From contig NZ_JALJYF010000001.1 in NCBI RefSeq assembly GCF_024170465.1, positions 1,054,001-1,118,000 of the forward strand: a stretch of 64,000 nucleotides of DNA. The letters run 5' to 3'. The DNA comes from Natronospira proteinivora. Lineage in GTDB: Bacteria > Pseudomonadota > Gammaproteobacteria > Natronospirales > Natronospiraceae. Position numbers and translations under genes: made by a program. Shown piece by piece: positions 39,325 to 59,719 of the stretch. Position 1 is the first letter of the stretch. Every line of letters begins with the position of its first letter. The notes beneath the pieces were generated by a model, which saw only the letters and a list, made by a program, of their open reading frames with translations, was not told the DNA's origin and searched no databases.

Positions 39325-39362
39325 GCCTGCCTCCGAATCCTCACCCGGTGGAGGACGGCCTA
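39322..39362. terminator. Hairpin spanning both stop codons (amidohydrolase / YhaN-like)
   Basis: TAGGCCTGCCTCC (39322-39334) and GGAGGACGGCCTA (39350-39362) pair at 11 of 13 positions. The outer triplet of each arm is the TAG stop of one of the two convergent genes. No T-run follows. Confidence 0.45.
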
Positions 39363-42300
39363 TACGCGCTGGCCGGCCTCCAGCCAACTCACCAGCTCGC
39401 GAGTTTCTTCCTCGTCGGCCGCTCTAGTCGTTCGCCAAATGGTGCGTTGCAGCCGTTCTTCCTCGTCCAGAGGGGTTTCGGGGCTGATATAGCCCTCTGC
39501 CTCCAGCCATTCGGCCAGCTCTTCCCGCTTGTCATTGCGAAATCCACTCACCGCCTTGTTGGCCAGGGCCTCAATCAGGGCCCCGCCATCGCCACCCAGG
39601 GACTCGGCCTGTTCGCATACCCGTTCCATGAAGGTCTCGCTTACGGCCCCGGACGCTTCCAATGCGGCCCGGCCCACGGGCTTGCCGCGCCCATGCTGCC
39701 AGGCCTGCTGCCAGGCCCGGGCCGCGGCACAGCGGCTGGCCAATTGTCGGCGCCAGTTCTCATCAGGGATGGCCTTCTCGGCCACATCCGAGTTCAGCAG
39801 GCTTTCAAGCTGGCCAAGGCCCCAGACCCGATAGCGCTGCATCAGGCGATACAGCAAGGCCAGATCATCCCGCAGCAGGTGAAAGAGCGGCAGGCCGCCC
39901 ACCGGCTGGCGGGGGTCAATAGCCGGAATGCCTACCCGGGCCGCCCACTGCTCCGGGCTTTCATCAACGGGTTCCGGCAATGTCTCCACCGCCGGCAGTC
40001 TGTAATCGGCCGCACCGAGATCACTTTGTCCGAATCGGATTTCGGCAAGATCCAGGTGATGGGGAGTGAGCCCGGCCAGCTGCTCCCACAGGGCCCGTTC
40101 CTGCTGGCGTGCGCTGAGGTAGAAGATCTGTCGTCCCTCTTCCCGAGCCAGGCTCGCCAGGTTCTGGGCCACTTCACGGAAACGGCTTTCATCGCTGGTG
40201 GTCAAGGCCTCGTCCAGAAACAGCGGCAAGGGTTCACAGCGCTCCTCCAGACGCCGGGTCCAGGCCAAGCGGACGGAGAGCAACAACTGCATGCGAGTGC
40301 CGGACGACAACTCGGACAAGCGGCGACGGCCGCTCTGGGTTAAATCCCGGGCAAGCAGGCCGGCGTCTTCGTCCAATGCCAGATCGAAGGCATGGTGAGT
40401 GAAGCGTTGGAAAAGCCGGCGGGCATCGGCCAGCACGGCGGGTTCGTGTTCGTTCTGATATTCGGCTTCCACATCATCCAGCAGAAACTGGCCGGCCTCG
40501 GCCAGCATGGCTTGCTGATGCTGCTCGCCGAGGGCATTTCTTGCCTGGGCCGCCGCAGCCATGGCACTTTCCAGGGCCTGGTCCTTGCCGGCGCTGCGCA
40601 GCCGTTCGCGGGTGGCACTCACCTCTTGCAGCAGGGACTCCAACAACTCGGCCTGCTCGTTGGCCCGCTGCAGCCCTGTTTCCAGGACCTCCCGCTCACC
40701 GGCTTCCGCCTGTTGCAGGCGTTCCGGGGCATTGACCAGGGTTTCGCGCAATTCCGCCTCCCGCCGATCCAAGACCCGCAGACTGTCCTGGGTCTGGCGC
40801 CACTCCGACAGCTGAGCGAGACGCTCGGCCAGACCGTTTCGATCGCTTTCATCCAGGCCCAGGCGCGCAAAGAGGCTGCGGCGTTCAACTCGGCGCTCCT
40901 CCAGTTGCTGCTCAAGCTGGCGCTGACGGTCCTCGGCCTCTCCCCACTCCCGCTCGGCAGCCTCCGCTTGTTCACAGCGGGCATCAAGGGCATTCAAGGC
41001 CTCGTCCAGCGCGGCCTCTTCAGCCGGAACCGACATGCCCCAGGCCTTGAGCCGCTGCTGCACCGCCTGCAACTCGCTTTGCTGTTCGGTTTCCAGCTGC
41101 TCGAGATGAGCCTCAACTTTCGCCACCTCGGTCGCCGCCCTTTGCCATTGGCCCAACACCCTGGCGATGAAATCCACGCTGGCCGCCGTCAGGGCCGGAT
41201 CGAAACCGATTTCCCGGGCCAGCTCGGCCTTCTCCTCATTGAGGGCATTCAACTGTTGTTGCAGGCGGTCGCGCTCGGCCTGATCCTCGCTCACGGCATC
41301 GGCTCGACGCCGGGCCAATTGCAGTTCCGCCAGATCGGACTCCAGCTCGGATAGACGTTTCTCCACGGCCTCACGATGCCAGCCTGAAGGGCCCGCCAGG
41401 CCGCTGCGCTCAAACCGAGCGCGAGTCTGGCGACCATCGCTACTCACCGAGCGATTCACCATCACCCCGGCCGCGAACAATGACAGTGCCGCCGGGGCTA
41501 ACAGCCACCAGAGACTCAGCCAGAGAGCGGCGGCTGCCGTAGCCAGCCCCCCCAGCGCGGCCAGTGCCATACCCAGACGGGAAGCGCCTGCCTCAGGTTG
41601 GCCAACCAGGCAGCTTCGCAAGGCCGCCACGGCCTGCTGGTGGGCATCCAATTGCCGCGCCTCCGGGGCTTGGCCCGCCGACTGGATGCGGCTGTCCAGG
41701 CGTTCGACATCGATCTCCAGCTTCCGCAACCGAACAGCCAGTTCGCTGGCCCGTTCCAGCGTCGCCACGGCGATATCCGGGGCCGAATCAGCGCCCCCTA
41801 CCACTGTGTCCCGCAAGGGCTGACACGCCCGGTCCAGTTCAGCCTGCAGCCGGACCAGCTCCGACTGCTGACGAGCTATCTCCCCGCTCCGAGCCTTGAC
41901 GCTCTCCAGTTGCCAGCGCGCTGCCCGGCGCTCATGGTTGACCGGTGGGTTGTCACCAAGCCCGGCCCGGCTCAGTTTCCGGTGGGCCGCATCCCCTTGC
42001 TCGCGGATGCGCAGCTGCTCTTCCTCCAGTTCATCGATCCGTCGGTCAAGCTGCTCCAGGCGTTCCTGCTCGTCACCCCGAAGCTTCTCCATGCCCTTCG
42101 GAAAACCGGCCAGTACCGCTTCCAGGGAACGGCGTTCGCTCAGGATCTTCTCCAGTTCCAGCGAACCCATCAGGGTGTCGCGTTCACGGGCTCCCTGCCG
42201 GGCGGCGTCCACCTCGCCTTGCAGGCGGTCCAGGTCTTGCTCGTCACGCTGCAACGCCTGATTCTCGGCCTCCACCTCACCCAGACGCTGCCGGGCCTCC

Positions 42301-42779
42301 TGCAGCTCACGGCCTTCCTTGCGCCCCCGGGCCGGACCGAAATCAAACGCATCACCCCGCAATGCGGCCAGATCAAAGCCACCGGCCAGGGCGGTGCGGA
42401 TCTCGGCCACCAATGCGGCGTCCTGTTGGCCGTCCTCGGCCAGCAGGTCTTCCACCTTGAGCCAGTAGCAATGCAATTCATCACGGGCCGGCAGGCGCGG
42501 GCCGGTCGTCGCCGGCTCGCCATCCCGATACCACTGCACATGGCTGGCGGTGCGCTTCACTGTCCAGCGGACGTCATTGTCGAAATCCGCTTCCAGCACT
42601 AGATCACGCGGGTCTGCTGTGCGGACACCACCGGCCAAATACTCCAATGCCCGGATCAGGCTGCTCTTGCCAACGGCATTGGGACCGGTGATCAGGTTCA
42701 GACCCGGGTCCAGGTCCCGCAGGTGGATAGTGCCCTGGATGCCGGGCAGGCGGGTGATTTGCAGACGGGTCAACTTCAT
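39360..42779 (-). CDS. YhaN-like AAA ATPase (SbcC/Rad50-type, AAA_27)
   Basis: This ATPase has 1139 residues. Walker A is TGPNAVGKSS (31-40). Two very long coiled-coil arms are separated, near residues 430-470, by a hydrophobic hairpin (LGMALAALGGLATAAAALWL... and LLAPAALSLFAAGVMV) where Rad50 has a zinc hook. The signature region (LSELSSGTRMQLLLSVRLAW) and Walker B (LPLFLDEALTTSD) follow. A ~190-residue C-terminal extension, rich in DUF-like helices, comes after the ATPase. It is coupled (ATGA) to a Mre11/YhaO-like phosphoesterase. The pair is expected to form a Mre11-Rad50-like DNA-end nuclease, here apparently membrane-inserted. Its role in B. subtilis-type systems is not well defined. Confidence 0.88.
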   Translation of the reverse strand: MKLTRLQITRLPGIQGTIHLRDLDPGLNLITGPNAVGKSSLIRALEYLAGGVRTADPRDLVLEADFDNDVRWTVKRTASHVQWYRDGEPATTGPRLPARDELHCYWLKVEDLLAEDGQQDAALVAEIRTALAGGFDLAALRGDAFDFGPARGRKEGRELQEARQRLGEVEAENQALQRDEQDLDRLQGEVDAARQGARERDTLMGSLELEKILSERRSLEAVLAGFPKGMEKLRGDEQERLEQLDRRIDELEEEQLRIREQGDAAHRKLSRAGLGDNPPVNHERRAARWQLESVKARSGEIARQQSELVRLQAELDRACQPLRDTVVGGADSAPDIAVATLERASELAVRLRKLEIDVERLDSRIQSAGQAPEARQLDAHQQAVAALRSCLVGQPEAGASRLGMALAALGGLATAAAALWLSLWWLLAPAALSLFAAGVMVNRSVSSDGRQTRARFERSGLAGPSGWHREAVEKRLSELESDLAELQLARRRADAVSEDQAERDRLQQQLNALNEEKAELAREIGFDPALTAASVDFIARVLGQWQRAATEVAKVEAHLEQLETEQQSELQAVQQRLKAWGMSVPAEEAALDEALNALDARCEQAEAAEREWGEAEDRQRQLEQQLEERRVERRSLFARLGLDESDRNGLAERLAQLSEWRQTQDSLRVLDRREAELRETLVNAPERLQQAEAGEREVLETGLQRANEQAELLESLLQEVSATRERLRSAGKDQALESAMAAAAQARNALGEQHQQAMLAEAGQFLLDDVEAEYQNEHEPAVLADARRLFQRFTHHAFDLALDEDAGLLARDLTQSGRRRLSELSSGTRMQLLLSVRLAWTRRLEERCEPLPLFLDEALTTSDESRFREVAQNLASLAREEGRQIFYLSARQQERALWEQLAGLTPHHLDLAEIRFGQSDLGAADYRLPAVETLPEPVDESPEQWAARVGIPAIDPRQPVGGLPLFHLLRDDLALLYRLMQRYRVWGLGQLESLLNSDVAEKAIPDENWRRQLASRCAAARAWQQAWQHGRGKPVGRAALEASGAVSETFMERVCEQAESLGGDGGALIEALANKAVSGFRNDKREELAEWLEAEGYISPETPLDEEERLQRTIWRTTRAADEEETRELVSWLEAGQRV

Positions 42780-44068
42780 GCTGCTTGTCCCCCGTCCTGC
42801 TGGCGCAGCATCTGTTCCAGCAGCCGTCGCCCGGCCTGGCGCAGCCAGTCGGCCACGGCAGCATCGTCGAGCGACGGCTCGCCAAGGCCTTGCCAACGCG
42901 GGTCGCGGGCCCGGGCCATCAACCGCTCGCGGCCCTCGGCCAAAAGACGCCGCCGTGCCTCGCTATCTCCATCACTGTCCAGCAGCAAGAGACGACGGGC
43001 CAGCAGCCCGGCCGGGTCCTGGCGGTCGGCGAGTTCGGCCAGGGGAATCTCCGGCAGGGTATGGGGAATCAGTTTTTCAATGAAGTAGCGGATCGAGCTG
43101 CCGCCGGGACTCACATTATTGGCCCCCTGGCGTTCGCTTTCCAGAATGGCCAGGGCCTGTTTGCCGAAACGGCTGCGGCCATTAAGAGTGACGCGAAGCC
43201 CGACGGCATCAGGCGGCCTGAAGGATTGACTGATGCGGGCATCGATCTGCCGCAAGCACTCTGCCAGACGGCTACGAACTGCTTCGGCTTCTTCCAGCTC
43301 AGTGAGATCGAGCTGCAGGGGTTCGAAGCGGATGGGAGCCAGAACCCATTGCTCCAGCGACGCCAGGCGGCCGCGCTCGATTTGCAACAGCCAGGGACCC
43401 CGGTCACCGGCCTCGCCCGGGTCCATGCCGGAGACCGACCCCAGATAGCCGGAAGGGTTCTCAAGGGAGAGGGCATCGGGCTTGTGAATATGGCCGAGCA
43501 ACCAGCCATCCAGGCCGGCGCCCCGCAGCTCGGCACTGCTGATCGGGCCGTAATGGCTGCCCGGTTGGTCGCGGTCGCAATGCAGCAGGCCCAGGTTCAG
43601 ACCCGGGCGTCGTTGGAAGGTCTGCCCGGCCAGCGGGCTGTCATGCACCTGCTTGCGGGGAAAGGACCAGCCCCAGAGGGTGAGGGTCTCGCCGGCTTGC
43701 TCCAGCGACCAGGGCTCCCACTGGCCGTTGGCACCGATGAGTTCGAAATCAGGCAACTCCCGAACCAGGCGTGGCAGGACCTGCACATCGTGGTTGCCGG
43801 CCACGCCCACCACCCGGATACCGGCCGAGGCCAGCCGGGCCACCCCTGCATGGAGCTGGCGGCCAGCCTCGTAGAAATCATCCTCCCGTTCCACCACATC
43901 GCCGGCCAGGGCAACCACATCCACGTCCTCATCGATGGCCGCATCCACCAGCCGGGACCAGGCCACAGCCGGGCTCAACTCACCGCCCTGCTGGGTCAGA
44001 TCGTCCGGCAGGCGGGACGGCCGTCGCCCCAAATGCATGTCGCCAACCGCCAACAGTTTCAAGCTCAT
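42776..44068 (-). CDS. YhaO/SbcD-like metallophosphoesterase (DNA repair exonuclease)
   Basis: This calcineurin-like phosphoesterase of 430 residues has motifs in order: GDMHLG (Asp10, His12), ALAGDVV, GNHDV, a later LLHCDRD and LLGHIHKP. These give the two-metal active site of Mre11/SbcD/YhaO. A capping and helical C-terminal region (~300-430) would contact the ATPase. The start is ATG 44068 with AGAAGG seven bases upstream. It overlaps the YhaN-like gene by four bases. Nuclease activity on DNA ends is inferred from the family. Confidence 0.9.
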   Translation of the reverse strand: MSLKLLAVGDMHLGRRPSRLPDDLTQQGGELSPAVAWSRLVDAAIDEDVDVVALAGDVVEREDDFYEAGRQLHAGVARLASAGIRVVGVAGNHDVQVLPRLVRELPDFELIGANGQWEPWSLEQAGETLTLWGWSFPRKQVHDSPLAGQTFQRRPGLNLGLLHCDRDQPGSHYGPISSAELRGAGLDGWLLGHIHKPDALSLENPSGYLGSVSGMDPGEAGDRGPWLLQIERGRLASLEQWVLAPIRFEPLQLDLTELEEAEAVRSRLAECLRQIDARISQSFRPPDAVGLRVTLNGRSRFGKQALAILESERQGANNVSPGGSSIRYFIEKLIPHTLPEIPLAELADRQDPAGLLARRLLLLDSDGDSEARRRLLAEGRERLMARARDPRWQGLGEPSLDDAAVADWLRQAGRRLLEQMLRQQDGGQAA

Positions 44069-44157
44069 CTTGCATCCTTCTCTTGATCGTCGGCGCACAG
44101 GATACCGAATAAGGCGACAGGGATTGTCGTGAAATCGCCCTGAACAACAGTCAGTCT

Positions 44158-48405: not shown

Positions 48406-48478
48406 ATGATGCATTCGGCCGGATTTTCAACGCTCAAACTGTTGACAAAATGGGTAAGCCAAGGCTGAAAACCCGGCT

Positions 48479-49017
48479 TGTGGAGAAATCAGCTGTTTTT
48501 TCCGGACTTTACATAAACGATTTCAAAAGACGCCCAGCCAATCTCCCACAATCGATTCAACCGCCCTCAAAACACCACCATTTATTTATTTCATTCAAGT
48601 AGTTATAAAGCATCTCCACCCAACTCGGGTGATACCGACCGTCAAATTCGGGAAATATTCACCTTGTAAGTCTTCCACAAAATCTGTGGATAAGTCTGTG
48701 AATAGATGCCGCAAACGGCATTCCTGACCACTCCTCATTTGGATTGGCGATTTTTTAACCACTGGGTCTTTCGGGCGGCTTAAACCCCGGTCCTGTTTTT
48801 CTTCCCCATTTTCTGTGGATCACCCTGTGGAAAACCTCGAGAAGCAGGCGCTCTCTCCCCATCCGTTTGGAATGGCGAAAGATTGGCCATTGTTGCCAAT
48901 TCGCCACAGTAGTCCGAATCAACCATCCAGAGATCACTTTCCGGTGGGGCCTGCCCCACACACCGATGCCCGGCTATGCCACACTGTGCGCCATCCAACC
49001 ACCCACCTTGTGAACAA
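48479..49017. other. DnaA-box cluster: candidate replication origin or DnaA-titration locus
   Basis: The 626-base gene-free stretch 48406-49031 holds one perfect DnaA box (TTATCCACA on the minus strand, 48685-48693). Five boxes have one mismatch, all in the same orientation: 48479-48487, 48697-48705, 48814-48822, 48826-48834 and 49009-49017. A two-mismatch box is at 48671-48679. An AT-rich segment (48580-48612) could unwind. Neither dnaA, dnaN nor gidA is in the window, and GATC sites are few. Confidence 0.5.
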
Positions 49018-49031
49018 CTTGAGGACAAGCA

Positions 49032-49418
49032 ATGGAAGCAGGATTGAAGCATTTGCACATGAGCCTGGCACTACTCAGCATTCTTGGTTTCCTGGCCCGC
49101 GGCGGATGGTTGCTGGTCACCGGCGAGAAACCCCAGCACAAGCTAGCCAGAATTCTTCCCCATGTAGTGGATACCTTTCTGCTGCTCAGCGGCATTGCCC
49201 TGTTGGCCGCCACCAGCTGGGTTTTCCTGACTCAACCCTGGATGCTGAGCAAGTTCGCCCTGCTGGTCTGTTACATCGGCTTCGGTGTGGTGGCTTTCCG
49301 GAGTCAGAGGCCGGCCATGCGCTGGGGGTTTTTCTGGCTTGCCGTGCTGACCTTCCTACAATTGATGGTCACGGCCTTCAGCAAATCACCGGCCGGCCTC
49401 CTGCTCACCTTCCTTTGA
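49032..49418 (+). CDS. SirB2-family membrane protein
   Basis: This inner-membrane protein of 128 residues has four helices and the SirB2 layout: KHLHMSLALLSILGFLARGG, KLARILPHVVDTFLLLSGIALL, SKFALLVCYIGFGVVAFRS and FFWLAVLTFLQLMVTAFSK. Despite the old name (regulator of Salmonella invasion), homologues are widespread in non-pathogens, and the biochemical role is not known. It begins 15 bases after the last DnaA-like box. Confidence 0.88.
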   Translation: MEAGLKHLHMSLALLSILGFLARGGWLLVTGEKPQHKLARILPHVVDTFLLLSGIALLAATSWVFLTQPWMLSKFALLVCYIGFGVVAFRSQRPAMRWGFFWLAVLTFLQLMVTAFSKSPAGLLLTFL

Positions 49419-58998: not shown

Positions 58999-59719
58999 AC
59001 TGTTCCGCCTCCTGTAACCAGACGGCGCCGCCGCTTTTTTCATTTATAGCACGCATTCGCTCATCATGGACCCGGCGCTCTTCCTCGGAAGCCTGAAGCA
59101 CCCGCAGCTGCATGCCTTCCCGCTTGACCCGTCGAATCCGGCTGTGGCGAGATTCGGCCCCATCGGTCTTGTCTTCCTCTCCGTCCAACAGCAAGGTCTT
59201 CTGACCACCGGTCATGGCCAGATAGACATCCGCAAGAATCTCCGCATCCAGCAAGGCGCCGTGCAGATCGCGGTTGGAATTGTCTACTTCATAGCGCTTG
59301 CAGAGGGCGTCCAGGCTATTGCGCTGGCCCGGATGCATGCGCCGGGCCATGACCAGGGTATCCAGCACACTGCAGCATCCCTCGATGCGTTGATCACGGC
59401 GCAGCAGCTTAAGTTCGTTGTCCAGAAAGCCCACATCGAAGGGGGCATTGTGGATAACCAGTTCCGCGCCGTGGATATAGTCGATGAAGTCATCCACCAC
59501 TTCCTCGAAGCGGGGCTTGTCTTCCAGGAAGTCATTGCTGAGACCGTGAACCTCCACTGCCCCGGCATCCACCTGGCGGTCTGGATTCAGGTACTGGTGG
59601 AAATTACGACCGGTCAAGCGGCGATTGATCATCTCCACACAGCCAATCTCAATGACCCGATGCCCATCGCTGGTTTCAAGGCCGGTGGTTTCCGTATCCA
59701 GTACGATCTGACGCGTCAT
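58985..59719 (-). CDS. dnaQ: DNA polymerase III epsilon subunit (proofreading exonuclease)
   Basis: DnaQ is the 3'-5' proofreading exonuclease of the replicase. At 244 residues it has the usual length. The DEDDh motifs are Exo I VLDTETTG (Asp8, Glu10), Exo II HNAPFDVGFL and Exo III HGALLDAEILADVYLAM. A C-terminal segment binds the alpha subunit. GGAGT lies upstream of ATG 59719. It follows rnhA on the same strand; in E. coli rnhA and dnaQ are divergent neighbours. Confidence 0.95.
   Translation of the reverse strand: MTRQIVLDTETTGLETSDGHRVIEIGCVEMINRRLTGRNFHQYLNPDRQVDAGAVEVHGLSNDFLEDKPRFEEVVDDFIDYIHGAELVIHNAPFDVGFLDNELKLLRRDQRIEGCCSVLDTLVMARRMHPGQRNSLDALCKRYEVDNSNRDLHGALLDAEILADVYLAMTGGQKTLLLDGEEDKTDGAESRHSRIRRVKREGMQLRVLQASEEERRVHDERMRAINEKSGGAVWLQEAEQYEHS

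Follow-up and report, generated by a model that had tools for sequence, protein, structure and literature searches.

The gene-free region at positions 48406-49031 of the window (the whole stretch of 64,000 nucleotides analysed, G000:C1:1054001-1118000, from a genome of 2.93 Mb in four contigs) raises the question of what a dense group of DnaA boxes does there. The earlier note had offered three answers: a chromosomal origin away from dnaA, a locus like datA, or a DnaA-reactivating sequence (DARS). The cluster itself is confirmed. Within 540 bp (48479-49017) there are six boxes that deviate from the consensus by no more than one base, all on the minus strand; the box at 48685-48693 is perfect, and the five that begin at 48479, 48697, 48814, 48826 and 49009 have one mismatch each. 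In about 0.9 Mb of genome samples, on which both cluster ranks and GC skew were computed, this is the densest 540-bp cluster, and the next independent one contains four boxes. The claim that chance would give far fewer was also borne out: when the window was simulated 100 times with a first-order Markov model, the largest cluster had four boxes, a size seen in three of the copies, and six were never reached.

The region is indeed without genes. We found no long open reading frame in 48406-49031, and an RNA gene was rejected as a candidate because Rfam gives no match in the gap at E<=1. The GC content of the gap is 48.6% as compared to roughly 60% for the window, and the AT-rich segment that had been described next to the boxes corresponds to positions 48575-48616 (28.6% GC). 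Inside this stretch is an IHF-like site with one mismatch (48593-48605), which is weak and not significant. The gap ends at a sirB2-like plus-strand gene (49032-49418), which is a conserved neighbour in the genus. The second perfect DnaA box of the window (59449-59457) is solitary and located within an ORF-dense region. Elsewhere in the window (39360-44098), two adjacent minus-strand genes give matches to SbcC/Rad50 and SbcD/Mre11 that are weak and fall well short of the family cut-offs.

The observation that all boxes have the same orientation holds for those with at most one mismatch, but not for two plus-strand boxes of poorer match, which complete the structure and are its diagnostic part. 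Once these inverted boxes are counted, the cluster resolves into two tandem trios, in which a third box of opposite orientation lies upstream of each box pair, whose members are 12 bp apart from start to start. The layout is the same in both: an inverted box I, 5 bp, box II, 3 bp, and box III. Core 1 (48671-48705, plus strand), which is conserved in both same-genus genomes, reads TCTTCCACA-AAATC-TGTGGATAA-GTC-TGTGAATAG. Its box I (TCTTCCACA, 48671-48679, plus strand), recognised by sequence and spacing, is inverted relative to boxes II and III and has two mismatches to TTATNCACA; the box search returned box II as the perfect TTATCCACA (48685-48693, minus strand) and box III as CTATTCACA (48697-48705, minus strand). 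Core 2 (48800-48834, plus strand), 129 bp from core 1 and weaker, reads TCTTCCCCA-TTTTC-TGTGGATCA-CCC-TGTGGAAAA; it combines a degenerate box I recognised by its spacing (TCTTCCCCA, 48800-48808, plus strand, three mismatches to TTATNCACA) with boxes II (TGATCCACA, 48814-48822, minus strand) and III (TTTTCCACA, 48826-48834, minus strand) from the box search. The remaining two boxes found by this search, TTCTCCACA (48479-48487, minus strand) and TTGTTCACA (49009-49017, minus strand, just before sirB2), are solitary accessory boxes outside any trio.

Two trios with this 5/3 spacing occur in the window, whereas none of 100 shuffles contained two. When 64 spacing combinations (gaps of 2-9 bp between boxes I and II, and of 0-7 bp between boxes II and III) were scanned over the 0.9 Mb and two other core loci, only the 5/3 spacing yielded more than one trio; it yielded four, two at this locus and one at each of the two others. 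No trio was found in the datA and oriC regions of E. coli, nor in the dnaA region of the genome studied here.

The cores of E. coli DARS1 and DARS2 each consist of three equally spaced boxes with box I opposite to boxes II and III, an arrangement that allows two molecules of ADP-DnaA to make contact head to head (PMC5742627, PMC8682772). The DARS1 core is TTATCCACT-ATTCC-TGTGGATAA-CCA-TGTGTATTA, and the trio in the DARS2 region, TTATTCACC-TTTTC-TGTGGATAG-AGT-TGTGAAGAA, has the same 5/3 spacing. As in DARS1, which lies in the bioD-uvrB gap, an inverted box I, 5 bp, a perfect box II, 3 bp and box III follow each other at an intergenic site far from oriC; however, DARS1 has one core rather than two, has other neighbours, and is located at about two thirds of the distance from origin to terminus, compared to about 86% here. 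The E. coli rppH-mutH gap, which contains DARS2, apparently has two 5/3 trios (1636-1670 and 1952-1986 of the extracted region, 316 bp apart), the second of which is the poorer. Our locus thus resembles DARS2 in core spacing, in its extra DnaA boxes and in the presence of a second trio, but DARS2 is located mid-replichore, and the gap studied here contains no Fis consensus site and only three IHF-like sites, each with one mismatch. Tandem double cores are also seen in G002, G023, G041, G209 and G523.

In datA, DnaA boxes 2, 3 and 7 are arranged around one IHF site and stimulate ATP hydrolysis. E. coli datA is likewise an intergenic DnaA-box cluster away from oriC; however, it depends on a site for IHF located between its boxes 2 and 3 and lacks the 5/3 trio. 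No strong IHF site is present in the gap studied here. The origin of the genome itself, in the dnaA-dnaN gap, shares with the locus the proximity of DnaA boxes to AT-rich DNA, but is without a trio and located at a skew switch. Among the three options of the earlier note, DARS is strongly supported, because the architecture and spacing of the core are identical to those of DARS1 and DARS2, whereas datA is not supported, because the E. coli datA region has no trio, and an origin is contradicted by the chromosomal position discussed below.

Conservation upstream of sirB2, one of the checks that had been proposed, was examined in the relatives. The core is present there in both same-genus genomes, in one copy in G001 and in two copies 287 bp apart in G002, and it is retained although the rest of the gap, the flanks and the genes beyond have diverged. 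The distance from the core to the sirB2 start varies from about 120 to 400 bp. G003, from a related genus of the same family, has sirB2 but no core at that gene; the sirB2-linked locus is restricted to the genus. Besides the cores in the window, the genome contains two further cores, both on contig C2. One is upstream of priA at 666.7 kb (666700-666731), about 174 kb from dnaA; the other, at 588.9 kb (588933-588964) and about 252 kb from dnaA, lies between hemW and a gene that we take to be gltA (citrate synthase), a flanking gene that is conserved in relatives. The position between hemW and probable gltA is common to G001, G002, G003 and other families of the order. Several further families of Gammaproteobacteria likewise have a core next to priA, near the start of the gene, and its orientation with respect to priA was constant in the cases compared. 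Cores elsewhere are also found beside genes named from their sequence as nadC-rimO and pepN.

Beyond the genus, a 32-base core pattern with at most two mismatches was found in 279 of 377 gammaproteobacterial genomes that were at least 95% complete, whereas the reversed pattern, used as control, gave no match; among the relatives, 48 of 56 contain the core. When the gap between boxes I and II was allowed to vary from 0 to 25 in these 56 relatives, almost only gaps of 5 or 17 were recovered, and the latter represents box III paired with box I of the same trio. In the search across the phylum, family f166 gave matches that hardly differ from E. coli DARS1 and that served as an internal positive control. 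Most genomes sampled from the phylum outside the class do not contain the core. An exception is the non-gammaproteobacterial family f183, where we counted it in 28 of the 31 genomes sampled; a single genome may contain as many as eight copies. In two genomes that consist of one contig each, the distances between cores and dnaA are about 0.25 and 0.9-1.0 Mb, which places the cores away from the origin. A trio in another lineage is, by its sequence, a candidate DARS.

Several other explanations for the locus have to be weighed. An origin away from dnaA, or the relic of one, would be consistent with the AT-rich stretch that adjoins the boxes. A position next to dnaA, dnaN or mnmG is usual for an origin but not obligatory, and all three genes are absent from the window, as had been reported. 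The genes dnaA and dnaN are located on contig C2 at about 841 kb, in the order rpmH-dnaA-dnaN, and the dnaA-dnaN gap is itself AT-rich and contains DnaA boxes. On C2, the sampled GC skew is mostly negative before about 830 kb and turns positive beyond about 880 kb; on C1 it is positive over the first 860 kb and negative from 900 kb onwards. These switches place oriC at dnaA, at the skew minimum, and the terminus near 860-900 kb of C1, the latter by skew only, as a search of the genome for dif, allowing up to three mismatches to a consensus of the E. coli type, found no site. The locus (C1:1102.4-1103.0 kb) has negative skew on both sides and is separated from the skew maximum at the terminus by about 0.2 Mb; provided that C2 follows directly on C1, end to start, an arrangement consistent with the skew, it is about 1.31 Mb from oriC, or roughly 86% of the replichore. 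Both checks, sampled GC skew and the location of dnaA, thus assign oriC to C2 and not to the contig that carries the locus. With the minus-to-plus switch at 830-880 kb of C2, together with dnaA, we reject the interpretation as an origin, which is scarcely credible. A chance cluster without function is hardly more so, even though core 2 is degenerate and the window as a whole has only 30 DnaA boxes compared to 21 expected: the size of the cluster is beyond all simulations, and the conservation of the core in two relatives with diverged flanks already contradicts chance.

The locus could also be a site of titration or inactivation, where the boxes sequester DnaA, like the box clusters of B. subtilis, or promote ATP hydrolysis like datA, without nucleotide exchange. 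Any cluster with six to eight boxes in one gap binds some DnaA, and DnaA titration loci are known (PMC13220808, PMC12371093). However, titration needs neither a fixed inverted box I nor a fixed 5/3 spacing, yet selection keeps both, and the E. coli datA region has no such trio; we consider this explanation unlikely. Alternatively, the boxes may belong to a promoter through which DnaA regulates the transcription of sirB2 or of the mrp genes downstream of it. The locus is just upstream of sirB2 in all three members of the genus, one box is 15 bp from the sirB2 start codon, and the priA cores are likewise near a gene start. Nevertheless, the varying distance between core and sirB2, the occurrence of the same core beside unrelated genes (priA, hemW, nadC-rimO and pepN), and the sirB2 of the related genus represented by G003, which has no core, make a promoter function decidedly improbable.

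We therefore regard the region as probably a DARS with two tandem cores. Inverted box I, 5/3 spacing, an intergenic site away from oriC, and conservation in related genomes are all found at the locus, and the best reading is that it represents the third DARS of this genome, terminus-proximal and genus-specific, which would promote the release of ADP from DnaA. Counting against this interpretation are the imperfect box I of both cores, the absence of a Fis consensus and of a strong IHF site from the gap, the restriction of the sirB2 locus to the genus, and the finding that E. coli DARS2 is moderately impaired when moved near ter (PMC5742627), given the position of our locus at about 86% of the replichore should C1 and C2 adjoin.

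By analogy with E. coli, Hda would make ADP-DnaA after initiation, and DARS sites would recharge it to ATP-DnaA. In each core, all three boxes would be occupied by ADP-DnaA; head-to-head contact would then lead to ADP release, and this may affect the timing of initiation. Genes for the trans-acting factors DnaA, Hda, Fis and IHF-alpha are present in the genome. Outside the window, at G000:C1:1122414-1122686, there is a frame resembling IHF/HU that is interrupted by one stop codon. IHF and Fis sites are a requirement of DARS2, whereas DARS1 has no such need. Since the gap lacks a Fis consensus site and all its IHF-like sites carry a mismatch, control of the DARS2 type is not evident, and the locus may work more like the factor-independent DARS1. 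We speculate that its terminus-proximal position allows control through dosage.

To our knowledge, nearly all work on the DARS cycle concerns E. coli. Conservation of DARS sequences has been reported for enterobacteria, Vibrio cholerae and Shewanella (PMC4245941, PMC8682772), and in the openly accessible literature that we searched, neither the core in distant Gammaproteobacteria nor its linkage to priA was described. Judged by its sequence, the locus itself would be a further DARS-type site, and the broad distribution of the core appears to be the more interesting result. This distribution may indicate that DARS-type nucleotide exchange is an ancestral, class-wide replication control in Gammaproteobacteria that is also present in some other proteobacterial lineages, usually with about two sites, one of which is often beside priA, and that genera add lineage-specific double-core sites like the terminus-proximal one described here, tuning initiation by dosage; we give this proposal an even chance of being correct. 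The 32-base pattern, with zero matches in the control, now yields candidate sites in most Gammaproteobacteria. This makes it possible to test whether the recharging of DnaA from the ADP to the ATP form is a general control, how the number and position of the sites set the timing of initiation, and why such a site so often adjoins priA, a gene of replication restart.
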